The translations under genes and the position numbers were made by a program. Under the pieces are notes generated by a model, which had not been told where the DNA came from, did not search any database, and was given only the letters and a program-made list of their open reading frames with translations. From a virus, in IMG/VR virus record IMGVR_UViG_3300020198_000099, positions 1-24,451 of that record: a stretch of DNA of 24,451 nt. The stretch is one strand, 5' to 3'. Below, one piece after another: positions 9,647-24,062 of the stretch. Positions within the stretch are counted from its first letter, which is position 1, and each line of letters starts with the position of its first letter.

Positions 9647-12600
9647 TTACAGTTCTGCTAACCACCAACCACGTAGGTTGGAAGGAATTGAAGATGCATT
9701 TGGATCTCCTGCTGCATCTGTTGGACCAACATAAATTAATCCGAATGAGGCATTTCTAGTTTGAACAATAAGTTCTCCACTATCCCACGCTGTTGTTAAT
9801 TGACCAGCGCCAGCTTGAATTTTACTTCCAGTTAAATCACCTTGAATTGCAACAGCTTGATTACTTACTTTTAGTGCTCTAATTACCAACGTTGTATTGT
9901 AACTTAGGTTGCCACTAATTTCAACAAATCTAATCACATCTCCAGTTTCAGCGGTTGCTGGTAAGTAAACAACCATATTTGTTCCAGAAGGATTATTGAT
10001 TAGATAGTTATTATTTGGTTGAAGAGGATTAGTTTGAGTTTGACCAATTCCAGTAAGAGACTGTTCAACATATGTATATCTGCGTCCGCCATTTCTTGTG
10101 AAATAACGATTAATTCCAAATGCATCAATTGATCCATCCTGATACATGATGAAATCTTTTGGTCCAACAGTTCCGCCAGTTCCAGCTCCACCTAGATTAT
10201 CAATGTGTAAAACGGCAGTACCAGAATCTCCAATAGAATTTGGAACAACTTTTCCTTTGACATAGAGTTTTTCCCCCATGTCAACACTTCCAGTGTTATT
10301 AAATACTTGGAATACAATATCATCAGTACATACACCATTTGCTTCGCAAGTATCATATCTAACTTGTAGATCATCTAAGAATGTTCCACCGCCCTTAATC
10401 CACAATCCAGATTTATTTGTCTTAGGATCAAGAATAGCACCATCACCTGGGTGATCATCATCATTAGAAATGTTAAAGATCAATGTCTGACCATCGGATC
10501 CATAAATTCTAAACTCACCTCCCCAAACATTAACTTCATCAAAAATTGTTGTTGATCCACCGCCTGCAAAAGATGTAAACGCTCCAGTTGTTGCTTGAGA
10601 TGCAGATTGTGTTGCTTTTGCTAAACGCACACCATATGAGGAATTGTTTCCATCAATACTATCTGCCCAGAACCATTCTTGTGTTGTGTTCTTTCCATCA
10701 GAATTAACTGTATTACCAGAAACAATTCTAAAGAAATGATCTGTATCTAGTTTTTGTGCAACAAGTCTATGATCCTCAAACTTAATTTGAAGTTTATTTG
10801 GGTTTGTATTTGGAGAAGGTGCTGCGGATCTTCCAGTTGCTGGAATAGGATCCGCTACTGTAGTTGTATTAATATATTTTCTAATCTTAACAACTACCGC
10901 TCCCGCATTCCAATTTTGTTTTCCAGTTTGTTCAGCACCTCTACCACCATTTGGATATATTGAAGCAAGATACTGTGCATTGTAAATTGTTGGTAAATAT
11001 CCTTGATTATTGCTCACAAATGGATTATCGGTGATAATAATAATTTCTGCCTGAGTTGATCCATTATAAATTAAAACTAAATCTCCCTTCTGGAAGAATT
11101 CAATATCATCAACTGGAATATTAAAGTCATCTTTTACAAATCCTACAGTAACACTGGTAAGAGGACCGTTGGTTTGCATTGTTTGTTTATCAAATCTATA
11201 GCTATGGATTTTGCTTGTACCAACTGTATGTGCAAGAGCACTGCTGCCCCAATACTGAGAAATAGCAAACACTCTACCAATCAGACTTCCAACACGCATG
11301 TCGCCATTGCACATGTTGACATCCCAGACAATTCCATCTGGATTTGAAAGTGACAAGTGATTATCAGTTGAGGGGTCTGGACTTGGATAAATTCCAGTAG
11401 AAGATCCACAAATACCATTTAGATTTAGACTTCCATTAACTTCAAGATCGCCATTAATTGTAGTATCGCCAGTTGTTGACTCAATTTCAAATACGATATT
11501 TTCAGAAGACGTATCACAACCATTCTTGATCATGAACTTCTTAGCAACCTGATCTAAGATAGTATCAACTTTAAATACTTCACCTTGATTATCTACTCCA
11601 TCATTAGCTGGAATACCATCTGCTCTATCAATAATTAAATAGTCATCAATATCAATTGTTCCACCAAACTGAGATAGATAAACATTTTCTTTGTCAGTGT
11701 TTGTGCCAGTGCCATCAATTAACTGCGTGGTCCAAGTTGCATCAAATTGCACAATGCACTTGTAAATTGCTGACGTATCAGTGTGATTTGTCTTAATTTT
11801 TGTAAATGTTCCGAATGGTTGCCTTTCAACAACAATATAATATGGTGCTGTACTAATTCTTGGTAGTGAAACAATCTTCAAGAATTCAGGGTGTTGGGTT
11901 GAACTTTCTGGTGTATCAAGTAGTAAAATATCGTTCTCAGTAAAATACTGATTACCATTTGAATCATATGGACTAAACTTAAGTGGTAGATAATATTTCT
12001 TACCTGTAAGTGCAGGCAGTAAAGTTGGTTCAACAGTTCCTGGGATTTGAGTGATTGCCTCTTGATAATCCACACTTCCCCAATCGCCAGATCCAGCAGT
12101 ATCTAATTCATTATAAACATCACTCGTTGATGGTACTCTCAATACGTCAACAATATCAACGTTTGAATTAAAGATGTTGTTTCCAATAATACCAGTTGCA
12201 TGTTGAAATGCTGTTGAACCCATTTGCGCTCTAAACGCAGTAAATGAATAGGAAGCAAATCCACCACAAAGAGTAATATCAGAATTAACTCTAAGCGTTG
12301 AATCAACAATCAAGTTGTTTCTAATAGTTGTTGAACCACCTTGACCACCAATAGTAATATTAGAAGCATTTGTAGCAAAATCAAGAACTGTTGTAGCACT
12401 ATTACCAGAGAAGAATTCAACTGTTCCTGCAGTAGAAGTTAATTTAACGGTATCATTTAATCCTCTTTTTGTTCCTAATTGGAAATCCCCAGCAACTTTA
12501 AATGCCTTGTTATTAATCAGTGTGTATGATAGAGATTCATTATTGTTATAAGCACCACCAATTTCAATTTTAGAAATATTTGTGTTAGTATCAGGAGTGT

Positions 12601-15600
12601 CTCCAATGAAGATATTGCTATGCAAACAATCTCCACCAATATAGATAAATTGATCTGCAGTTGTAGTATCTCCAATTGAAATCGTTGACGCTTTATTACC
12701 AATATTAAGTGTTCCAGTAAATGTAGAATCTGTAACTAGATTGAATGTACCAGTAGTAATGCCAGTTCTAATCTCACCAGTTTGCGATCCACCATCTGTA
12801 TAAACGGTAATGTCTCTCTGGAACTTTGCGTCTTCAGTAAATCTAGAATCCCCCACAACAACTAAAGCGTGATCTAGTTGTGCGTCTGTTGCATTGATGC
12901 CTACCAGACCAGCACTTGGAGTCCTACCAGCTTCTGCAATGGTTGCATTTCCTTCTGTGGAAACTCGTAATGTTGCATACTGATTAATGGATGCGCTGTT
13001 TCCACCAACAACCAAAGCATCTCTAACAGATTCTTTGTCGCGTGCGGCGAATGTGGCATGGTCTAGATAATCATCGGTCTTCTTACCACTAATGTAAGCG
13101 TTACCAACAACATCAAGGTTGGCACGAGGGTCAGTATCTACATCAACAAAAGCAGTTTGATATGAAGAATGTGCTGATCTTGCAACTGTATTGATACCTA
13201 ACTTATAATCACCGATTGTATCTGTATCTGTTCTGATTGATTCTGCACCAAGAACTCCAACTTCCTTCCAAGAAGAAGTTGAGTACTCCATCAGAACTCC
13301 ATTGCCAAGAGCAACTTCTGTTGACCACAGTCTTGGGTTATCATTATCTACATTTCCTTTGGCTTCAATAATGGCAATCTTACAATTAGATGCAGAAGGA
13401 TTAAAGGAGCTGGTGATAATTTGCCATAGTCCATTAAATGCAGAATCGCTAAAGTTAGAGATTCTAATTTGTGATCCAGATGTTATTCCGACTTGAGTGT
13501 TGGATAGGTTATTTGACCAATTAATTATAATGACATTGCTGCCATCCATGGTCAGATTTGCAATATTTGCAGAAGGGACGTTTTCAAAGAAGTTAGCATA
13601 AATCCAACCAAGAGATCCGCTTTGTCCTACTTCAGACCCTTTTAATAGGATATCACCAGATAGTGGAACTTTTGAACCATAAAGAACTGCCTGACTAGCA
13701 TTTAAAGCAGTACCATCACTACCTGGAACACCATATAGACCAGATTGATTTGGTGTAATGTTTGATCCAAGACTTGAAACTACATGATTTTGAATCTTAT
13801 AACTCTGCGCTGCTCCATTTGATCCACGTGGATTAAATTGGAATATAGATGCTGCAATTCTATTTTTAGAAATAATGATATCGCCTTTTGTATCTTGATT
13901 AAGGAACTGTGCTGTTTTATCAAGAGTAGGATCATCACCATCACTTGGAGATACATTTGAAATAATTGTTAGAGAACTATCTCTAATTTTTCCAAGAACA
14001 TTAATAGTTACTGGTGAGTTAAATGTACTCATCAAATCTTGGTTATCACCACCATTAACAGTGATATACTGATTAAAGGTTACTGGAACATCAAAAGTAG
14101 TGGTGAGATTTCCAATATCTTCGGTATCATCATCCGAATCAACAAGTGATGCCGATTCTAGGAACTCTTCTTCGCCAGTGATAGCATCAATCTTACGATT
14201 GCCAATATAGAGGTCACCATTGGAGTTTAAACCAGTGTAGAACACAAGACCACCATCTTGCTTCTTAGATTGTGCGTAGAAGTCCTGAGTAGGAGTTAAA
14301 ACAATCTCCTGACGTGCGGGAAGACCAGTAGAGTAGTTACCAGGACCGAATCCAAGATATTCAAACGTGTGGTTACCTGCACGGGCAATGGATGGTCTAC
14401 GTAGTTCAACATATAGACGTTGATCTACAACAACAGTACTATCACCAGCAATTGGAATCAAGCGATCTTCAGATCCAGAAGAGGCATTACCTTTCTGTGC
14501 TCTAATTCTATTATCAATTACAGAAGATACTTGTGTGTAAGTATTGTCAGATAGTGCTGGTTGAGAAATAAAGTCAGTAACCATTTCTTTGGTCATGGAC
14601 CCCTTGAAGTCATTGACTCTAACTAAACCATGGGTATAGTTGTCTGCCGCCGAGAAAGTAGCAGGAGGATCAACTAATGTTGCATCTAGTTGTTTGAACC
14701 AGAGAGGATCGTTCTTGTAATTTAATGGATATAACTTACTAATTGGTTGAGAGAACTTCATATTTCTAAAGTTCTCTTTACTTCCAGCTCCTGTTGGATA
14801 TGGAGAAATATTACCACGTACTGCAGTTAGATAATAGATACCCTCTTGTTGACCGTAGATGCGACGCTGAATCTCTTCAACATCAAAAATATAGAAAGTA
14901 TCTTCTAATTCTCCAGTGTCTTCAACAGAAGCAACATAATATTGAATGTTTGCATCATCAGTAATAATATCACCAGGAGTTATAGTATATACTTTTGATC
15001 CATTCTGCCTGTAATAATACTCAGGATATCCTTTTGCAATCAAATCCTTGATATACAAAGACTTACCGAAGTCTTCATCGCCAAGTAGATCTGCAAAGAC
15101 AGCACCTTGAGCGAATCTTGTATTTGTAAATTGAGAATAGTCAATCTTACCAGAAATTCCCTTCAGAATCATATACCAGTCTGAAGTTCCAGGAACATTC
15201 ATTACAGCGTGAATAAATGCATATCCAGATGAATTTCCAAACCAATCAACTCTATTGACAGAGTTTAACGATTGAGTTTTATTTGCAACAAAATTTCCAC
15301 CTTGAGGAGCAGTAATTTTAACAGTAATAAAGTTTTCATTTAAAAGACCAAGATTTTGAATTCCTAGGTCAAATACGGTTAGTTCTAGATATTCTTTATT
15401 ATTTTGAGTAATATATCTACCAGATTCAATAGTCATTGAAACATAATTTGTTGTTTCAATGATTTTTGCATATTGAGTAGTTCCTACAATGTCTCTCTTG
15501 TATGGATCATATGCACTATCTCTTGACAGACCGAGAGTTACATCATTAAAATTAGCATCCGTATAACCAATCTTTTCATTTGGTTGAACTGGATTATAGA

Positions 15601-18600
15601 AGCTTGCTTTAGTAACTGATCCAGATACTGGTTTTAACAGAATTCTCTGTGGTAATAGTTTTCTCGTATCATCCTTTCTCATCTTAATGGTAAACCCATT
15701 AATAGGATCACGTACAGCTTGTAGATATTCTGGAATTACATAGCGAAGACGATAAATGCGCTGTAACGCATCTCTTTCATCATTAATTCTCTCAAACCAC
15801 GAATCATTTGTTTTATTTTGTCCAGAAAGATCGCTGTATGCAGCCTCATGGAATCTTGTTAGAATATTGTACTCATATTCTGGATCATTTCCATTTGAAG
15901 AATGATCCTCAACTTGCATATACCACTTACCATAAATTGTTGGCGAAGTATTTGGGTTTGCATAAGAAGGATCAAATCTTACTGGAGCACGACGCTTGTC
16001 CGCAAATACAGAGAAGTCATATGTTCCTGGCTGCCATGTAATTGGATTTTGATCAGCAATGGCATCAGCTTTGCTTAGATGAACAGTGAATACCTTTTTA
16101 TTTTGGTATCTTGCCCAGAAGAACTTATCTGCTCTAATTCTACCATTACTATCTGCAACTGCAGGATCAGATGCATAGTTAGATCCAACAAGTGGTAGGT
16201 TTCCACCTTCATTTGCTCTAAAAAATACTTGATGCCCAGTAATATTACCAAATGGAACATCAAAAATATGTGGTACATCTGTACGAATACCAGATCCAAC
16301 AGCACCTTGCCCAATGTCTAATACACAAGAATATTGATGTAGATCATAGTTTTCATCTAATACAAACTGATAGATATCAATTTCAACATCTGGATCAATT
16401 GCTTCTACTTCTGCGGAGTGAATATAGATACCCGCTGCAGCATTTTCTTTGCTGCTTGCAAGCATAATCTTGGTTTGATCACTACCATTGAATACTGTCG
16501 TTGCACTATAATCTTTTGGGGTGGTAATTCTTCCAGGTGCAATAACATAATATTTTTCATTAGTTTCAAAACCATTTGGTAATCTTACTTTTCTTTTATC
16601 TACATCAACATATTTCTGTGTTACAATATCATATCTTGGACGTGGTACAAGTCTTACAGGAGTTCCAGTTTCTAAATTATGTGGATTTGATCCAACTCCA
16701 GTTTGAAGAGTCCACACAGTTGCTCTTGCTGCAAGTAGATTTGTTAACTGTGTTGGTTCATTTCTTGGAACAGTGTTAAGTCCAGTTTGAATAATTATAG
16801 CAATGTTATCAAAATATTGACGAATTGTATTGGATACATCAGAACACTCTGGATATTCTGGAGCTTGCGTAATTGTATCATCAGTGGTTGGTATTGTTGT
16901 GGCATAAACACCAATAGGTAGATCAAAATACAAATATGTGTTTGTAGTCGTAGCATTTGCATTTACTGATGGACCGAATGCCAATCCTAGTGGAGTGTCA
17001 ATTCTTTCAATTGACTGAAGATATCCAGGATTAGAAAGAGTATTAATAAGGATACCATACAGAGTGGTGATGCTTGATGCTACGTTTTGACAGGATCCAT
17101 TTGATAGATTTCTTTGAATTAATGATAGTGAAGATGGAGTTACAATAGCATTTGTAAGAATGCCGAACAAAGTAATGATTGTTGTTCTTACATCATTGCA
17201 TGATCCAACTGAAGTAGTTTTTGTAATACCAGCAATACTTAGTGGATTTGCAATAGCAGTTGTGACAATTTGGGTCAGTGTTGTAATTGTAGATTTTACA
17301 TTTTCGCAAGATCCAGCAGAAATTGAACGACTAACAGAATACAAAGAAGTCGGTGTTGAAATAGTATCTGTTAGTAAATCAACTAATGAAGTAATTGCAG
17401 CTGCTTGACTCTGGCAAGTTGGAGTAGTAGTATCAACCGTAATTGTATTATCAAATATTTGAGTTAATGTTGTATGTCCGCCAACAGTGATAGATTCATT
17501 TCTCATCGCTTGAATCATTAAATCACGAGCGAAATTAAACGCAGTAATAGTTTGCGCCTCTTCACCAGCAACATGTGCTCCTGCTGCATATAGATTTGCC
17601 GCATCCCAAACAAGGTCATTACCACCATACGCAAGATTGTGTGCAACAACCGTAATCATATCTTTGATATCATCAAGACAATTTACACTACCAGTTGGTA
17701 CAGAGAATCCAGGATAGCTTTCTAACATTCTGCCGAGAGCAATTTCAGCAATAAAATTCTTATTTGATAGAATAAGATTTTTTGCATCTGCAGATTTATT
17801 GTCAATTGGTGTTGGCGAATTGTAAGTAATAGAAGTATCATATACTTGATTAAATCCATGAGATCCAACGACAAGAATCTTTTCATTTCTCATCGCTTGA
17901 ATCATTAAATCACGAGCAAAATTAAACGCATCAATAGTTTGTGCCTCTTCACCAGCAACATGTGCTCCTTGGATATAGAGATTAATCATCTCTAAAACTC
18001 TATCATTCCCGCCAAATGCTAGATTGTAAGAAACTTCCTCAACAAAATCTTTGATATCATCAATACAATCTTGGGGATTGCCTGTTGGTGTTACAAATCC
18101 AGGATTTTTTGTAAGCATTCTTGCATATGATTCTGCAGCAATCAAATTCTTATTTGATAAGATTAAATTGCGAGCATCTCCAAAACGATCTACAACTGGT
18201 TCTGGTTGATCATAGGTAATTGTAAGATCTTTTACTTGAGTTAGTCCATGAGATCCAATAATAAGAATTTTTTGATTTCTCATGGCTTGAATTGCCATTT
18301 CTTTTGCTTGATTAAAAGCAAAGATTGTTTGTGCTTCTTCACCAGCAACATGAGCACCTTTTACATATATGGAAGCACACTCATATGTCTTATCATTACC
18401 GCCATATGCAACGTTGTCTGCAACCGCCTCTAACACATCTATAATGTCATCAATGCAGTCTTGGGGGTTACCAGTAGGAGTTACAAATCCAGGGTACTGT
18501 ACGAGCATTCTGGCGTATGCTTCTGCAGCAATTAGATTCTTATTTGATAAAATTAAATTGCGAGCATCAGCATTTCTATCTGCAACAGGATCTGGAGCAT

Positions 18601-21469
18601 CATAGGTAATTGTAAGATCTTTTACTTGAGTTAAACCATGCGAACCAAAGATAAGAATATCTTCATTACGCATAACCTGAATGCTTAGATTTCTAGCATA
18701 TTCAAATGCGCGAATAGTCTGTGCCTCTTCACCAGCAACATGAGCCCCACTTTCATATAGATATGCTGCATCCCAGGTGTCTTCATTTCCACCATATGCT
18801 AAACTCTCTGCAACTGCTTCTATTACATCTATAATATCATCAATACAATCTTGGGGATTGCCTGTTGGTGTTACAAATCCAGGAAAATCAAGAAGCATTT
18901 TTTGATATGCTTCTTGAGCGATGAAATTTTTGTTTGTAAGAATTAAGTTACGAGCATCTCCAAAACGATCTGCTACAAGTTTTTTTTCAGAGAAAACTGC
19001 TTTCTGACCTAATTCAATTGTAGTAGCATTAACAACTCTTTTAACATAAGTATTGTCTGGAATAACAGGAGATGCTGGTCTAACCGCGCCAGGATTTAGT
19101 TTACCATTAGTAAATTTAGATGGATCATAGTCAGCAACTGTCATACCCTGAACGATTCCAGTAGTATCACCAACATTTACAATAGCAGATCCAGATGTTG
19201 TAGCTACATTAGTGCGTAAATAATCAAAATTACGCATTGCTGCAATAGCAAGATCTCTTGCATAAGCATATGCTTCAAGCGACTCGCTTAATTCAGAACC
19301 AATATATGATAAAGAATATCCAACATAATATGATTCAGCAGCTTGGATTGTATTGATGTTTCCACCAAGTCTTAAGTCTTGTATAGTAGCATCAATAAGA
19401 TATCCAATGTCTCTCTTACACTTTTGGATATCAATATTTGGTTTAATTAAAAGATATGGATATTTACCAAGAATATAACCATATGCTTCTTCTTGGATAA
19501 ACTCTTTGTTATCTTCAATTCTATTGGCAGAATCAAGATTTCTATTGTTTAAAACAATACCACTAGGATTTAGAATTTCTGCAGACGCTGTGTACTTATT
19601 AAATCCAGTTGGAGTCAAAGTAGCATTGAATATGTTTCCAGATCCAGCACTTCTTGGTGTTAATTTAACGTATAATTTTTCATCAGATCTAGCACCAATT
19701 CTGAATCCATTGATTGATGCTGCTGGACGTTTTGCTGGGTTATATGCATCATCATCACCATAATAAATTTTGGTATGATTATTTGTATCATTAGATGCTT
19801 TTACATCTAATGTGTAATATGAATTCTTTTTAGTGTTACCAGTAGTTTCTGGAACAATCTGTGGTGGAATAATATCAGTGATATATCCGCCTTTATCTTG
19901 GTTGAAAGCAAATCCTTTGAAACCAATAGCGTGCAGAGAAGTATTACCAAAGTTAGAGTTGGAGTTGGTGATTGACATATCACCACCGCTTTCCATTAAG
20001 AAGTGATCAGCAAAACCAACAGCAAAGATTGATACGCACTGAATGAAAGCATCTTCTGTAGCACGAACGTGGAAGTTTCTCCAGTCATCTTTCCAGTATG
20101 CATCTCCCTTAGTATGATATGGAACAGTAGCAAACGCATCAGTTAATGATGCTTCATTCCATGTGTTAGTAAACTCATCGTATCTGATAAATGATCTATC
20201 ATCTTTTTGTAGAGAAACGCCAGTATACTGAGCGATAACCATGGATTTGAATCCAGTGGCTTTTAGACCATTTGCCCAGATACCACAAATGCCCCAGGTA
20301 GAGCGAATTGATACGTTAAAGACATATGGAGAGGCAGATTCAACAGAATCAACTTCTGCTTTAACAACTGCGTTTGCACTTAATCCATTTTGAGCTGTAT
20401 ATAATGTTCCACTAACAAGACTTGCCGTTGTTCCAAGTGCAGCAACAGTTCCAGGAAGCTGATAACTAAACTTCCTCGCATCAATAACATCAATTTCATC
20501 AACTGGAAAAGTACCATTCAATTGATCATCAAGACCATTGTTCTCAATTGCGATGAATTGATTTTTAAAATATCCGTGATTGACTTTTGTTGTTAACTCA
20601 ACAGTAATTGTTCCCGCTGGCGAAGAATCCGTACACTTAATGCTCTCAATAGCACGAATATCTGAAAGAGGACCGACAATTCTATTTTCTTGAATTCTTG
20701 GAGAAAATTCACCAGGATCGTCAATTGTTGGTTGATATTGCGAAAATGCCTTTGCAATTTTGCGATAATAAAGACCTAGTTCCTCTTCATCTGCATATTC
20801 AAATACAGTTAATTTGTGGTGAGAATAATTAGGAATTGCTAACTCATCCCACTGTCCATTTTGATAATAAACTTTACCAATTCCTTCAGTGGTGTCATAT
20901 AGTGGTGAAGATGGTTCAAGATCACCATCTTTAATAGTAAATTGCCAGAAATAGCAAGCACCAGTTACGTTAAAGATCGCAGAACGCTTCTCAAGTTTAT
21001 CTGCAGGGTCTGGAACATATAGAGGACGAACAACTGTTCTACGAAGATCGTAACCAACAAGAGAGGAACCTCTTGGAAGAATTGCACCACCTTCAGTATT
21101 ATTAAATTTATAAAGAACGTTATTTGGATCAGAAATATCTAAATTTGAATTATCAGTCCACTCGTTTAATGCCTGATTAAATCCAAACGCAGAAATGCTG
21201 GTTGTATCAACTAAACCAGGACGGTTATCAATATAGTGATTGCCAGGCATCAGCATAATGCTGAACTGGTCAAAGCGATCATTATCAATTCCTGGCAAAT
21301 AGGAATATCTTGCAATTTCTAAGAAAGCACGTTGGATAGACTTAAATGGTCTAATTGGTGAATTGCCCCTGTTATTAAGTTCATCTGATGCGTTAAAATC
21401 ATCAGGAGAAACATAAAGGTACTTACCAGTTTTTGAACTGATAAGATTATCAAGTCTTGTCAAAGCCAT
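9647..21469 (-). CDS. Giant virion fibre-like structural protein (3940 aa)
   Basis: One uninterrupted frame of 3940 codons, about half of the window, of a kind known from T4-like cyanophages as very long putative tail-fibre or baseplate-associated proteins. The N-terminus has RPFKSIQRAFLEIARYSYLPG (40-60) followed by beta-rich sequence. I see a degenerate helical unit at about 655-770, four tandem units of 129-130 aa at 835-1352, and four cysteine-led units of 36 aa at 1352-1495. After these come long beta-helix-like stretches rich in Asn, Gly, Thr and Asp (for example GDTTTADQFIYIGGD), and a compact C-terminal domain of about 140 aa ending in GWWLAEL. There is no signal peptide, protease or enzyme motif. 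The ATG at 21469 is preceded by a late promoter at 21511-21518. It heads the fibre operon and is followed after 6 bases by a collar protein. A long fibre or whisker-like structure is likely; the attachment point is unknown. Confidence 0.85.
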   Translation of the reverse strand: MALTRLDNLISSKTGKYLYVSPDDFNASDELNNRGNSPIRPFKSIQRAFLEIARYSYLPGIDNDRFDQFSIMLMPGNHYIDNRPGLVDTTSISAFGFNQALNEWTDNSNLDISDPNNVLYKFNNTEGGAILPRGSSLVGYDLRRTVVRPLYVPDPADKLEKRSAIFNVTGACYFWQFTIKDGDLEPSSPLYDTTEGIGKVYYQNGQWDELAIPNYSHHKLTVFEYADEEELGLYYRKIAKAFSQYQPTIDDPGEFSPRIQENRIVGPLSDIRAIESIKCTDSSPAGTITVELTTKVNHGYFKNQFIAIENNGLDDQLNGTFPVDEIDVIDARKFSYQLPGTVAALGTTASLVSGTLYTAQNGLSANAVVKAEVDSVESASPYVFNVSIRSTWGICGIWANGLKATGFKSMVIAQYTGVSLQKDDRSFIRYDEFTNTWNEASLTDAFATVPYHTKGDAYWKDDWRNFHVRATEDAFIQCVSIFAVGFADHFLMESGGDMSITNSNSNFGNTSLHAIGFKGFAFNQDKGGYITDIIPPQIVPETTGNTKKNSYYTLDVKASNDTNNHTKIYYGDDDAYNPAKRPAASINGFRIGARSDEKLYVKLTPRSAGSGNIFNATLTPTGFNKYTASAEILNPSGIVLNNRNLDSANRIEDNKEFIQEEAYGYILGKYPYLLIKPNIDIQKCKRDIGYLIDATIQDLRLGGNINTIQAAESYYVGYSLSYIGSELSESLEAYAYARDLAIAAMRNFDYLRTNVATTSGSAIVNVGDTTGIVQGMTVADYDPSKFTNGKLNPGAVRPASPVIPDNTYVKRVVNATTIELGQKAVFSEKKLVADRFGDARNLILTNKNFIAQEAYQKMLLDFPGFVTPTGNPQDCIDDIIDVIEAVAESLAYGGNEDTWDAAYLYESGAHVAGEEAQTIRAFEYARNLSIQVMRNEDILIFGSHGLTQVKDLTITYDAPDPVADRNADARNLILSNKNLIAAEAYARMLVQYPGFVTPTGNPQDCIDDIIDVLEAVADNVAYGGNDKTYECASIYVKGAHVAGEEAQTIFAFNQAKEMAIQAMRNQKILIIGSHGLTQVKDLTITYDQPEPVVDRFGDARNLILSNKNLIAAESYARMLTKNPGFVTPTGNPQDCIDDIKDFVEEVSYNLAFGGNDRVLEMINLYIQGAHVAGEEAQTIDAFNFARDLMIQAMRNEKILVVGSHGFNQVYDTSITYNSPTPIDNKSADAKNLILSNKNFIAEIALGRMLESYPGFSVPTGSVNCLDDIKDMITVVAHNLAYGGNDLVWDAANLYAAGAHVAGEEAQTITAFNFARDLMIQAMRNESITVGGHTTLTQIFDNTITVDTTTPTCQSQAAAITSLVDLLTDTISTPTSLYSVSRSISAGSCENVKSTITTLTQIVTTAIANPLSIAGITKTTSVGSCNDVRTTIITLFGILTNAIVTPSSLSLIQRNLSNGSCQNVASSITTLYGILINTLSNPGYLQSIERIDTPLGLAFGPSVNANATTTNTYLYFDLPIGVYATTIPTTDDTITQAPEYPECSDVSNTIRQYFDNIAIIIQTGLNTVPRNEPTQLTNLLAARATVWTLQTGVGSNPHNLETGTPVRLVPRPRYDIVTQKYVDVDKRKVRLPNGFETNEKYYVIAPGRITTPKDYSATTVFNGSDQTKIMLASSKENAAAGIYIHSAEVEAIDPDVEIDIYQFVLDENYDLHQYSCVLDIGQGAVGSGIRTDVPHIFDVPFGNITGHQVFFRANEGGNLPLVGSNYASDPAVADSNGRIRADKFFWARYQNKKVFTVHLSKADAIADQNPITWQPGTYDFSVFADKRRAPVRFDPSYANPNTSPTIYGKWYMQVEDHSSNGNDPEYEYNILTRFHEAAYSDLSGQNKTNDSWFERINDERDALQRIYRLRYVIPEYLQAVRDPINGFTIKMRKDDTRKLLPQRILLKPVSGSVTKASFYNPVQPNEKIGYTDANFNDVTLGLSRDSAYDPYKRDIVGTTQYAKIIETTNYVSMTIESGRYITQNNKEYLELTVFDLGIQNLGLLNENFITVKITAPQGGNFVANKTQSLNSVNRVDWFGNSSGYAFIHAVMNVPGTSDWYMILKGISGKIDYSQFTNTRFAQGAVFADLLGDEDFGKSLYIKDLIAKGYPEYYYRQNGSKVYTITPGDIITDDANIQYYVASVEDTGELEDTFYIFDVEEIQRRIYGQQEGIYYLTAVRGNISPYPTGAGSKENFRNMKFSQPISKLYPLNYKNDPLWFKQLDATLVDPPATFSAADNYTHGLVRVNDFKGSMTKEMVTDFISQPALSDNTYTQVSSVIDNRIRAQKGNASSGSEDRLIPIAGDSTVVVDQRLYVELRRPSIARAGNHTFEYLGFGPGNYSTGLPARQEIVLTPTQDFYAQSKKQDGGLVFYTGLNSNGDLYIGNRKIDAITGEEEFLESASLVDSDDDTEDIGNLTTTFDVPVTFNQYITVNGGDNQDLMSTFNSPVTINVLGKIRDSSLTIISNVSPSDGDDPTLDKTAQFLNQDTKGDIIISKNRIAASIFQFNPRGSNGAAQSYKIQNHVVSSLGSNITPNQSGLYGVPGSDGTALNASQAVLYGSKVPLSGDILLKGSEVGQSGSLGWIYANFFENVPSANIANLTMDGSNVIIINWSNNLSNTQVGITSGSQIRISNFSDSAFNGLWQIITSSFNPSASNCKIAIIEAKGNVDNDNPRLWSTEVALGNGVLMEYSTSSWKEVGVLGAESIRTDTDTIGDYKLGINTVARSAHSSYQTAFVDVDTDPRANLDVVGNAYISGKKTDDYLDHATFAARDKESVRDALVVGGNSASINQYATLRVSTEGNATIAEAGRTPSAGLVGINATDAQLDHALVVVGDSRFTEDAKFQRDITVYTDGGSQTGEIRTGITTGTFNLVTDSTFTGTLNIGNKASTISIGDTTTADQFIYIGGDCLHSNIFIGDTPDTNTNISKIEIGGAYNNNESLSYTLINNKAFKVAGDFQLGTKRGLNDTVKLTSTAGTVEFFSGNSATTVLDFATNASNITIGGQGGSTTIRNNLIVDSTLRVNSDITLCGGFASYSFTAFRAQMGSTAFQHATGIIGNNIFNSNVDIVDVLRVPSTSDVYNELDTAGSGDWGSVDYQEAITQIPGTVEPTLLPALTGKKYYLPLKFSPYDSNGNQYFTENDILLLDTPESSTQHPEFLKIVSLPRISTAPYYIVVERQPFGTFTKIKTNHTDTSAIYKCIVQFDATWTTQLIDGTGTNTDKENVYLSQFGGTIDIDDYLIIDRADGIPANDGVDNQGEVFKVDTILDQVAKKFMIKNGCDTSSENIVFEIESTTGDTTINGDLEVNGSLNLNGICGSSTGIYPSPDPSTDNHLSLSNPDGIVWDVNMCNGDMRVGSLIGRVFAISQYWGSSALAHTVGTSKIHSYRFDKQTMQTNGPLTSVTVGFVKDDFNIPVDDIEFFQKGDLVLIYNGSTQAEIIIITDNPFVSNNQGYLPTIYNAQYLASIYPNGGRGAEQTGKQNWNAGAVVVKIRKYINTTTVADPIPATGRSAAPSPNTNPNKLQIKFEDHRLVAQKLDTDHFFRIVSGNTVNSDGKNTTQEWFWADSIDGNNSSYGVRLAKATQSASQATTGAFTSFAGGGSTTIFDEVNVWGGEFRIYGSDGQTLIFNISNDDDHPGDGAILDPKTNKSGLWIKGGGTFLDDLQVRYDTCEANGVCTDDIVFQVFNNTGSVDMGEKLYVKGKVVPNSIGDSGTAVLHIDNLGGAGTGGTVGPKDFIMYQDGSIDAFGINRYFTRNGGRRYTYVEQSLTGIGQTQTNPLQPNNNYLINNPSGTNMVVYLPATAETGDVIRFVEISGNLSYNTTLVIRALKVSNQAVAIQGDLTGSKIQAGAGQLTTAWDSGELIVQTRNASFGLIYVGPTDAAGDPNASSIPSNLRGWWLAEL
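16985..17416 (-). repeat. Four 36-aa cysteine-led tandem repeats in the giant protein
   Basis: The four units begin at cysteine codons starting at 17416, 17308, 17200 and 17092, exactly 108 bases apart. The pattern is C-x-x-V-x-x-x-I-x-x-L-x-x-I-(L/V)-x-x-x-(I/L)-x-x-P, ending in S-x-G-S before the next cysteine (CENVKSTITTLTQIV, CNDVRTTIITLFGIL, CQNVASSITTLYGIL). A fifth, out-of-register relative (CSDVSNTIRQYFDNI) follows at about 16846. They follow directly on the 130-aa repeats. Confidence 0.85.
17414..18967 (-). repeat. Four tandem 129-130 aa repeats in the giant protein
   Basis: Units start at 18967, 18577, 18187 and 17800, a period of 390, 390 and 387 bases. Each has DARNLIL(S/T)NKN(F/L)IA, PGFVTPTGNPQDCIDDI, (A/F)GGND, the near-invariant AHVAGEEAQTI, and MRNxxI followed by a GSHG loop. 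They look largely alpha-helical, unlike the rest of the fibre. A more diverged copy lies before them at about 19150-19510 (EDNKEFIQEEAYGYIL, AYAYARDLAIAAMRN). Confidence 0.92.
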
Positions 21470-22015: not shown

Positions 22016-22204
22016 CTATTGTTTCTCAACAGTACACTCAAAAGGAAGTGTTTTAGCAACAGATTCTGCTTTTGCTTTTGTAGAAAAAGTACATGCTTGT
22101 GTTTTATCAATAGACCATCTATTTTCTTCAACAAAATAAATTGATCCAGAAACAAGAGAAGAAGTTTCTTCTGCAGTAATAATCCAATTATACTTATTAG
22201 CCAT
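22016..22204 (-). CDS. Unknown 62-aa protein between tmRNA and tRNA-Ala
   Basis: From ATG at 22204 to TAG at 22016-22018, encoding a protein that begins MANKYNWIITAEETSSLVSG and continues with SIYFVEENRWSIDKTQACTF and a Lys/Ala-rich helix. It looks like a small beta-beta-alpha domain. I do not recognise it. An upstream GTG at 22243 would extend the frame by 13 residues but would run into the structured 3' end of the tmRNA coding piece, so I prefer the ATG. The stop codon is directly followed by the first base of tRNA-Ala, so RNA processing and translation may compete here. Confidence 0.65.
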   Translation of the reverse strand: MANKYNWIITAEETSSLVSGSIYFVEENRWSIDKTQACTFSTKAKAESVAKTLPFECTVEKQ

Positions 22205-22291
22205 TGTAGTGTAAAAATGAACTGTTGAGGGGAGGCGTTCCACCTCCTTGAGTTATTTGGATAACAAGGCTAACTTAACCCCGATCTCTGT

Positions 22292-22336
22292 CTAGACAGC
22301 AACTGCCTGACGGGAGAATGCAACGATGTTATTCGC
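22292..22336 (-). other. tmRNA tag reading frame and stop
   Basis: The frame GCG AAT AAC ATC GTT GCA through GCA GTT GCT GTC TAG encodes ANNIVAFSRQAVAV and a stop at 22292-22294. The resume codon is taken as GCG at 22334-22336. GCA one codon earlier (22337-22339) is equally possible. The ANNIV-FSRQA core agrees with the tag type I recall for marine Synechococcus, but the end differs: it stops in AVAV rather than a VAA-type terminus. Confidence 0.75.
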
Positions 22337-22483
22337 TGCGGTTGCGATGTTTTTGGCATCTATTTTGTGCTTATCCAAGCAGGTTTCAGTCACGCTCCTA
22401 ACACCCCGTCTAAACCGTGGCATCCCCGTGAATGGAGATGAGGGGAGTTGAACCCCTGTCCGAAATATTGGTGGCGTCACCTA

Positions 22484-22500
22484 TTCCCTCAAAGAGGGAA
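22484..22500 (-). promoter_or_regulatory. Hairpin between tRNA-Thr and the tmRNA acceptor piece
   Basis: TTCCCTCTTTGAGGGAA forms a perfect 7-base stem with a TTT loop, starting one base after the discriminator of tRNA-Thr and just ahead of the tmRNA acceptor piece. It may mark the processing site that separates the two RNAs, or be the 5' hairpin of the acceptor piece. Confidence 0.5.
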
Positions 22501-22574
22501 AGCCACAAGTCGGACTTGAACCGACGACCTACGGTTTACAAAACCGTTGCTCTATCCAGCTGAGCTATAGTGGC
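22501..22574 (-). tRNA. tRNA-Thr (anticodon TGT)
   Basis: Cloverleaf with acceptor GCCACTA and TTGTGGC (the sixth pair is a T-T mismatch), discriminator T, D-arm AGCTCAGCTGGATAGAGC, anticodon stem ACGGT/ACCGT with loop TTTGTAA, and T-arm GTCGG-TTCAAGT-CCGAC. Anticodon TGT reads threonine ACA and related codons. Its first 23 bases overlap the end of the upstream CpeT-family coding frame, and a hairpin directly follows. Confidence 0.93.
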
Positions 22575-23031
22575 GAATAAACTCTAAGTGCCCCCATTCG
22601 GACCCCCAGATTTTTTGTTCTGTCCTCGGATCAATTCCCGAATCCATCACTTTATATGTATTATACCCAAGGATGATGTTGTTTGTCAAATAAGTTGTGA
22701 CACCTTTCCAATTGACCCAACAAGTACAATCCGTATTGTGCCCATAAAACTCATCGCCTATTAACTCAAATATTGTATCGCATCCTTCTTTGTATGTCAA
22801 ACCTTTTTTATCAAAATTTTTGACGCGAAATTTTTCCCCTTCTTGGCAAACTACCATTTGAAATTCCCTGTAAGGATTACTTAACGAGTGATGATAAGAT
22901 TGTTTACCATAAAACCTGTTTTCATCTATTCTTTTATGTGTAATGATAATTCTAGCATATCTTGTAGGATGTTTCATCGCTTGTAAACGATTGTCAAATA
23001 CACCTTCTAGATAATCATGAAACAGAGTCAT
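22552..23031 (-). CDS. cpeT: CpeT-family phycobiliprotein lyase-like protein (copy 1)
   Basis: 159 aa. The layout matches the CpeT/CpcT family: DYLEGVFDNRLQAMKHPTRYA (6-26, the helix with the conserved DNxxQA), a string of beta strands including EGEKFRVKNFD, the GCD-T-F segment (EGCDTIFELIGDEFYG), and the family end DSGIDPRTEQKIWGSEWG. Host CpeT attaches or helps attach phycoerythrobilin to phycoerythrin. Phage versions are shorter than the roughly 200-aa host protein and are presumed to help maintain or reshape light harvesting during infection; whether they are full lyases is not known. It starts inside the 93-aa gene (17-base overlap) and its last 23 bases lie inside tRNA-Thr. It is a diverged paralogue of the protein at 23592-24062. 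Confidence 0.85.
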   Translation of the reverse strand: MTLFHDYLEGVFDNRLQAMKHPTRYARIIITHKRIDENRFYGKQSYHHSLSNPYREFQMVVCQEGEKFRVKNFDKKGLTYKEGCDTIFELIGDEFYGHNTDCTCWVNWKGVTTYLTNNIILGYNTYKVMDSGIDPRTEQKIWGSEWGHLEFIRHYSSAG

Positions 23032-23591: not shown

Positions 23592-24062
23592 TTAAATTGA
23601 TAATGGTTTATCTGTTTTTTTAAATTCGTAAATCATTTCACTGCCCCAAACTCTTTTATTGTTGTTCCATCCTTGATCCATACTTTTGTATACTTTACCA
23701 TCAAATTCTACCACACTTTTAACTGTTCCTCCGTTAACTATACAATTATTTGTGGCAACCTCCCCAGTATAATGATCACCTACGAGATAAAATAACATAT
23801 CGCAACAAGAGTTATGTGATTCCCAATTTGGATCCCAATTTTCTACTCTAATTCTATCACCTTCATCAACAATTTTACTCCAACGGTGTCTATACGCATT
23901 TTCTTCTCCCAAGTAATGATACCATTGTTTTACAGAAAACTCGTTTTCATTAAGTTTTTTATATCTTAATTTAATATGGGCACAACGAGCTGGATCTCTT
24001 GCTGCTTGAAACCAATTATCATAAAATCCCTCAAGTTTATTACAAAAATCAAGAGTGTTCAT
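23592..24062 (-). CDS. cpeT: CpeT-family phycobiliprotein lyase-like protein (copy 2)
   Basis: 156 aa with the full CpeT-like layout: KLEGFYDNWFQAARDPARCA (9-28), a YHYLGEENAYRHRWSKI segment, EGDRIRVENWDPNWE, CCDMLFYLVGDHYTGE (where host CpeT has GCDM-F), NNCIVNGG, and the C-terminal YKSMDQGWNNNKRVWGSEMIYEF. It aligns along its whole length with the product of 22552-23031 (shared LEG-x-x-DN-x-x-QA, R-V-x-N-x-D, CD-x-x-F-x-L-(I/V)-GD, V(W/Y)GSE), but the two are clearly diverged and therefore not a recent duplication. The family acts on phycoerythrin chromophore attachment in cyanobacteria. The ATG at 24062 overlaps the upstream gene by 14 bases. Confidence 0.87.
   Translation of the reverse strand: MNTLDFCNKLEGFYDNWFQAARDPARCAHIKLRYKKLNENEFSVKQWYHYLGEENAYRHRWSKIVDEGDRIRVENWDPNWESHNSCCDMLFYLVGDHYTGEVATNNCIVNGGTVKSVVEFDGKVYKSMDQGWNNNKRVWGSEMIYEFKKTDKPLSI

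Follow-up and report, generated by a model that had tools for sequence, protein, structure and literature searches.

The closest described counterpart of the RNA reported here is the cyanobacterial two-piece tmRNA (Rfam RF01851) of Prochlorococcus, Synechococcus and Cyanobium, with which it shares the gene order, the acceptor stem with its G3-U70 pair, the T-arm, the joining helix, a short spacer without CCA, and the tag core AN(N/K)IVxFxR. Tags of bacterial tmRNAs typically end in Ala-Ala, the end of the ClpXP degron. That phages carry two-piece tmRNAs is already known: the available text of one paper (PMC9004378) describes them in methylophage Melnitz, Pelagibacter phage Mosig and AG-345-P14, and reports a survey of 53, of which 50 belong to phages of marine or aquatic origin; across all forms, 79 sequences of phage tmRNA are counted in PMC11915505. 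The Melnitz tmRNA is, according to the former text, of the alphaproteobacterial type and lies beside a glutamine riboswitch, unlike ours. The one-piece tmRNAs of Bacillus phage G and the mycobacteriophage ET08/Bxz1 group also differ from ours, having the standard gene form and unrelated hosts, although their predicted tags likewise lack Ala-Ala: AKLNITNNELQVA, ending in ELQVA, in phage G (locus L273, 1501-1809), and ATDTDATVTDAEIEAFFAEEAAALV, ending in AAALV, in ET08 (L276, 1501-1935).

RNAs of the same kind as ours occur in the named cyanophages Sf-FS3, S-SSM7/S-SSM6a, S-CAM1, S-CAM3, S-CBWM1, S-CRM01 and AG-345-P14, with tag ends that vary from clade to clade (LATA, LVTA, TVAA, VSCA). None of the feature tables examined has a tmRNA feature for these genes, several of which appear there as hypothetical proteins or go unannotated: the region is called “hypothetical protein” in S-SSM7 (L006, 3004-3222) and S-CAM3 (L005, 2955-3095), and it carries no annotation in S-CAM1 (HQ634177, L003) or AG-345-P14. 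We found no discussion of the tag sequences of marine-phage two-piece tmRNAs in the available text of PMC9004378, and none of the altered tag end, the tag extension or the separate viral lineage described below in a partial literature search, with the tmRNA database outside it.

The stretch of DNA analysed here (the window) is a 24,451-base IMG/VR virus record. It encodes a phage DNA helicase, a tail collar/short tail fibre protein, a tail chaperone, a 2OG-Fe(II) oxygenase and CpeT, and Sf-FS3 and S-SSM7 have a similar setting, with a 2OG oxygenase, the tRNA/tmRNA cluster and the giant tail-fibre gene; Sf-FS3 matches the window in the adjacency of tRNA-Thr as well as in the upstream and downstream gene setting. 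Judged by these characteristic genes and by synteny, the virus is a T4-like marine cyanophage (Kyanoviridae). Two CpeT-like antenna paralogues (PF06206, phrog_488; 22552-23031 and 23592-24062, both minus strand) flank a small phage protein (phrog_4134) and tRNA-Leu, and a single frame of 3940 residues (9647-21469, minus strand) occupies the position of the giant tail-fibre gene in related cyanophages.

A sequence-only reading of the window had proposed a phage-borne, permuted two-piece tmRNA of the cyanobacterial type and named a covariance-model search as the check. That identification is borne out by Rfam and ARAGORN, and by the cyanophage proteins around the gene. RF01851 matches end to end (22232-22517, minus strand; 158.2 bits against a gathering score of 70 bits, E = 5e-44, model positions 1-288 of 288), RF04321 (tmRNA_permuted) matches at 86.6 bits, and ARAGORN places a permuted tmRNA at 22201-22522 (minus strand). 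The acceptor piece precedes the coding piece (CATCTCC-A-TTCAC-GGGGATG at 22440-22421, no CCA encoded), and the acceptor stem, with 7 of 7 pairs including G3-U70, and the 5-nt spacer lie exactly where they had been read. It is near certain, then, that 22231-22500 on the minus strand is a complete permuted two-piece tmRNA gene. The earlier reading gave no tag, and the tag is the unusual part of this tmRNA. Compared with the cyanobacterial RNAs of RF01851, the viral copies form a separate lineage, mostly have tags that do not end in Ala-Ala, in many cases carry seven additional codons at the N-terminal end of the tag and a resume signal that lies correspondingly further upstream, and sit in phage tRNA clusters.

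Table 1. Elements of the tmRNA locus and its upstream tRNA in the window
Element	Position	Strand	Basis or remark
tRNA-Thr(TGT)	22501..22574	-	ARAGORN; directly upstream, 3' end abuts acceptor piece
Acceptor (tRNA-like 3') piece	22433..22500	-	Ends in discriminator A22433; 5' end predicted at 22500
5' hairpin of acceptor piece, TTCCCTC-TTT-GAGGGAA	22484..22500	-	Rfam alignment
Joining long helix, 5' strand	22461..22481	-	Rfam model, covariation
Joining long helix, 3' strand	22388..22408	-	Rfam model, covariation
T-arm	22441..22457	-	Rfam model; 100% of cells paired, 3 covarying pairs
Acceptor stem 3' strand, CATCTCC	22434..22440	-	Read off sequence
Discriminator A	22433	-	CCA not encoded
Intervening segment TTCAC, 5 nt	22428..22432	-	Read off sequence
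Acceptor stem 5' strand GGGGATG, start of coding piece	22421..22427	-	G3-U70 identity pair
Coding (mRNA-like) piece	22231..22427	-	Rfam, ARAGORN; 3' end approximate
Resume context ATAGAT/GCC, A at -4	22355..22363	-	Resume codon GCC 22355-22357
Tag reading frame, 21 codons + TAG, AKNIATAANNIVAFSRQAVAV	22292..22357	-	ARAGORN, codon reading
Seven-codon N-terminal tag extension AKNIATA	22337..22357	-	Absent from hosts
Conserved tag core ANNIVAFSR	22310..22336	-	Common to hosts
Altered C-terminal tag end QAVAV + stop	22292..22309	-	Hosts: xAPVAA
Downstream structured segment of coding piece	22250..22286	-	Matches cyano_tmRNA model
3' terminal hairpin of coding piece	22231..22247	-	Rfam alignment

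Pairing in the viral relatives goes far beyond chance, and the structure is under selection. Across 16 viral homologues, the 29 named pairs of three helices are 89.6% standard, against 40.9-56.6% when the alignment is slid by 1-3 columns, and 14 of the 29 have changed on both sides. The T-stem and acceptor stem are 100% paired in these homologues; part of the acceptor stem is fixed by the search pattern, while the T-stem and joining helix covary at free positions. The G3-U70 pair is present in the window and in 61/61 viral copies, where U70 is fixed by the search pattern and G3 is free, and in the same 61 acceptor pair 5-68, left free by the pattern on either side, is never broken, being found as GC, AT, TA and CG. 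The hairpin at the 5' end of the acceptor piece shows compensatory changes in loci L002, L041, L044 and L011. The window does score well below host tmRNAs (158 against 297-314 bits), as a non-functional remnant of a captured host gene might, but compensatory base changes, a conserved reading frame and intact genes in many viral contigs leave that explanation scarcely credible.

The shortness of the spacer between the two pieces had been raised as a puzzle for processing. Host spacers have a mode of 6 nt (range 5-20) and viral spacers a mode of 5 nt (range 4-17), so that 5 nt is ordinary and no new cutting mechanism is needed; permuted transcripts are known to be cut by tRNA-processing enzymes (PMC11915505). 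At the other end of the acceptor piece there is no spacer at all, tRNA-Thr ending at 22501 and the hairpin starting at 22500. Because the two abut, 3' maturation of the tRNA-Thr would also set the 5' end of the tmRNA. The arrangement recurs: in 20 viral loci a same-strand tRNA-Thr lies 58-66 nt ahead of the acceptor, and other viral loci have a different tRNA at about 89-94 nt. Cyanophage S-RIM50 (L008, 2957-3220) has the order tRNA-Leu, Thr, Ala, Asn, like the window, with no tmRNA between tRNA-Thr and tRNA-Ala; this is a presence/absence site, so the gene comes or goes between relatives. In the window, a frame of 62 residues without a family match (22016-22204, minus strand) lies between the tmRNA and tRNA-Ala.

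The RNA had also been called host-derived, and this holds only remotely. In an unrooted tree built without the tag, a single branch with 100/100 support separates 64 viral from 61 host tmRNAs; the tree does not give the direction of the original transfer. The split persists with the 5' part alone and after the addition of 20 host sequences that include the best matches to the window (64 viral, 81 host). Among 200 genomes of the host order, 175 match the window tmRNA, with listed identities of about 65-77%; the best of these are about 74-77% identical, and no close host copy was found in the 200. Recent capture from a host is rejected, as the viral copies do not nest among host copies in any tree. 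The cyano-type viral tmRNAs thus form, as far as such trees can tell, a lineage of their own that is host-derived only distantly.

The clearest departure from the hosts is the end of the tag. All 130 host tags (110 sampled and 20 added, the best window matches among them) end in Ala-Ala, whereas only 15 of the 83 viral cyano-type tags do so (10/64 unique sequences), and since the viral copies are one lineage these counts are not independent; Fisher tests on the raw counts are inflated by this common ancestry and are given no weight. The remaining 68 end in TA (27), LV (19), AV (10), TV (6), VA (2), LA (2), CA (1) and PA (1). Peptides from phage tags would include those of the AKNIATAANNIVAFSR type. 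A third collection pattern found nothing. In the window the tag ends in AVAV, and as Ala-Ala is a customary rather than a defining feature, the assignment of this RNA to the tmRNAs stands. A general loss of Ala-Ala from viral tmRNAs is rejected: of the permuted viral tmRNAs that lack the cyanobacterial tag core 46/50 keep it, as do 45/50 unique tags of one-piece viral tmRNAs, many of which may be prophages with host genes. Nor is the loss required in every cyanophage, as phages of the S-CAM1/S-CAM3 type retain STVAA.

On the tree, the presence or absence of Ala-Ala takes at least seven changes. If the starting point was a host-like VAA end, separate codon routes were followed, with GCC becoming GTC in the window and an alanine codon becoming GTT in loci L009 and L026. 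Scaled by branch length, there are 7 changes on 4.56 in the viral cyano-type tmRNAs against 3 on 12.71 in the other permuted viral tmRNAs (P = 0.005, the counts coming from separate trees); set against the hosts alone, with branch lengths included, the rate contrast is only suggestive (P = 0.065). The main rival to a weakened or redirected degradation tag draws on some of these results. According to it, selection on the tag is relaxed: the phage copy does no more than add to host tmRNA, and since it hardly matters in a short lytic infection how strongly the tag promotes degradation, its end has drifted. The variety of outcomes (TA, LV, AV, TV, VA, LA) over at least seven changes, the lineages that keep Ala-Ala and the weak contrast with the hosts would all fit, but under drift one would not expect the last residue to stay small and hydrophobic, alanine or valine, in 83/83 viral tags, and the other permuted viral tmRNAs keep Ala-Ala in spite of greater total divergence.

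The second departure is at the beginning of the tag, where 50 of the 83 viral loci, the window included, have seven codons before ANNIV and a resume signal shifted to match. In E. coli, tmRNA needs an A at position -4 from the resume codon (PMC2481249). This A precedes the upstream GCN codon in 42/42 unique long-tag sequences, the window among them, and the ANNIV codon in 1/42. The ANNIV codon is accordingly rejected as the resume codon of the long-tag phages, having the wrong base at -4 in 41/42, and translation of the extension is predicted. Its codons in both the window and locus L234 still look like those that open the tag (GCC AAA AAC ATC G / GCG AAT AAC ATC G), a likeness that makes a tandem duplication of the tag start probable. 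Near their C-terminus, the tags of L006, L201 and L204 are extended a second time (LTREFARTDELVTA), by what looks like a repeat of the TREL(A/V)TA unit.

All 42 long-tag copies combine a resume codon preceded by A at -4 with an open tag frame and a stop, which bears on a further explanation, that the phage RNA is a decoy or inhibitor, titrating SmpB and blocking trans-translation in the host, a role suggested for the gene of mycobacteriophage DS6A. The DS6A gene is tmRNA-like but has the tRNA-like domain only and no tag frame, and a molecule similar to it inhibits host tmRNA, so that inhibition has a precedent (PMC4131195, PMC11915505). In the window, by contrast, the frame is intact, and as a decoy needs neither resume codon, A at -4, stop nor tag core, all of which are kept, we regard this role as very improbable.

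Selection at the level of codons differs along the tag. With a pN/pS of 0.08 in the core and 0.34 over the whole tag, and with third-position changes dominating, purifying selection acts on the tag. The C-terminal part takes a middle value (0.39), and in the non-Ala-Ala tags the final three codons yield 0.25, from few changes (6 synonymous, 3 nonsynonymous); the extension, at 1.09, is without amino-acid constraint. The last of these values would suit relaxed selection, under which the value for the core is unexpected, and taking both sides together we consider drift of the tag possible but unlikely. A different proposal is that the tag has been retargeted, its altered end being recognised by a protein of the phage, or by a different protease or adaptor of the host, and leading to another route of degradation. 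The three-residue ends are indeed of few types (ATA, VTA, VAV, ALV, SLV, TLV) and within clades the C-terminal part shows partial conservation; yet the ends vary between clades, so that no single new reader is apparent, no adaptor was identified, and none of 11 phage records has a ClpP, all of which makes retargeting improbable.

Neither SmpB nor ClpP was found in those 11 phage records; a phage-encoded version of either is rejected on this ground, and host factors would be needed. In enterobacteria, degradation of tags with an AAV or ASV end is slower than that of tags with an LVA end, the former being slowed rather than immune (PMC11003136), and for the growth of the phage hybrid lambda immP22 it is mainly the release of ribosomes, not proteolysis, that matters (PMC2862035). 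Together with the need for host factors, these observations favour a working phage rescue RNA that would use host SmpB and add a weakened or redirected degradation tag, a reading to which we give a probability of roughly 0.5. By analogy with the enterobacterial tags, the phage tag would weaken or redirect degradation in cyanobacteria as well, although tags ending in alanine or valine could still be readable by ClpX.

As a rescue RNA of this kind, the tmRNA would be transcribed inside the tRNA cluster and cut by host tRNA enzymes, with 3' maturation of tRNA-Thr releasing the 5' end of the acceptor piece, RNase P making the 5' end of the coding piece, and 3' trimming and CCA addition finishing the acceptor piece. 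The two pieces would then pair and be charged with alanine through G3-U70, and the charged RNA would bind host SmpB, rescue stalled ribosomes and restart translation at the GCC codon. The longer tag without Ala-Ala would meet weaker or different handling by host ClpXP. We tentatively go one step further, at somewhat less than even odds: this may be an old cyanophage lineage whose tag has repeatedly been edited away from the ClpXP degron, giving rescue without destruction, in which ribosomes are freed but the tagged proteins spared or redirected, in competition with host tmRNA during infection.

Among the roles suggested for phage tmRNA is the recycling of host proteins through tagging (PMC9004378). 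A systematic loss of the degradation end points in the opposite direction, to ribosome rescue as the function under selection, and the cyanophage tags would thus offer natural variants for separating the two functions of trans-translation.
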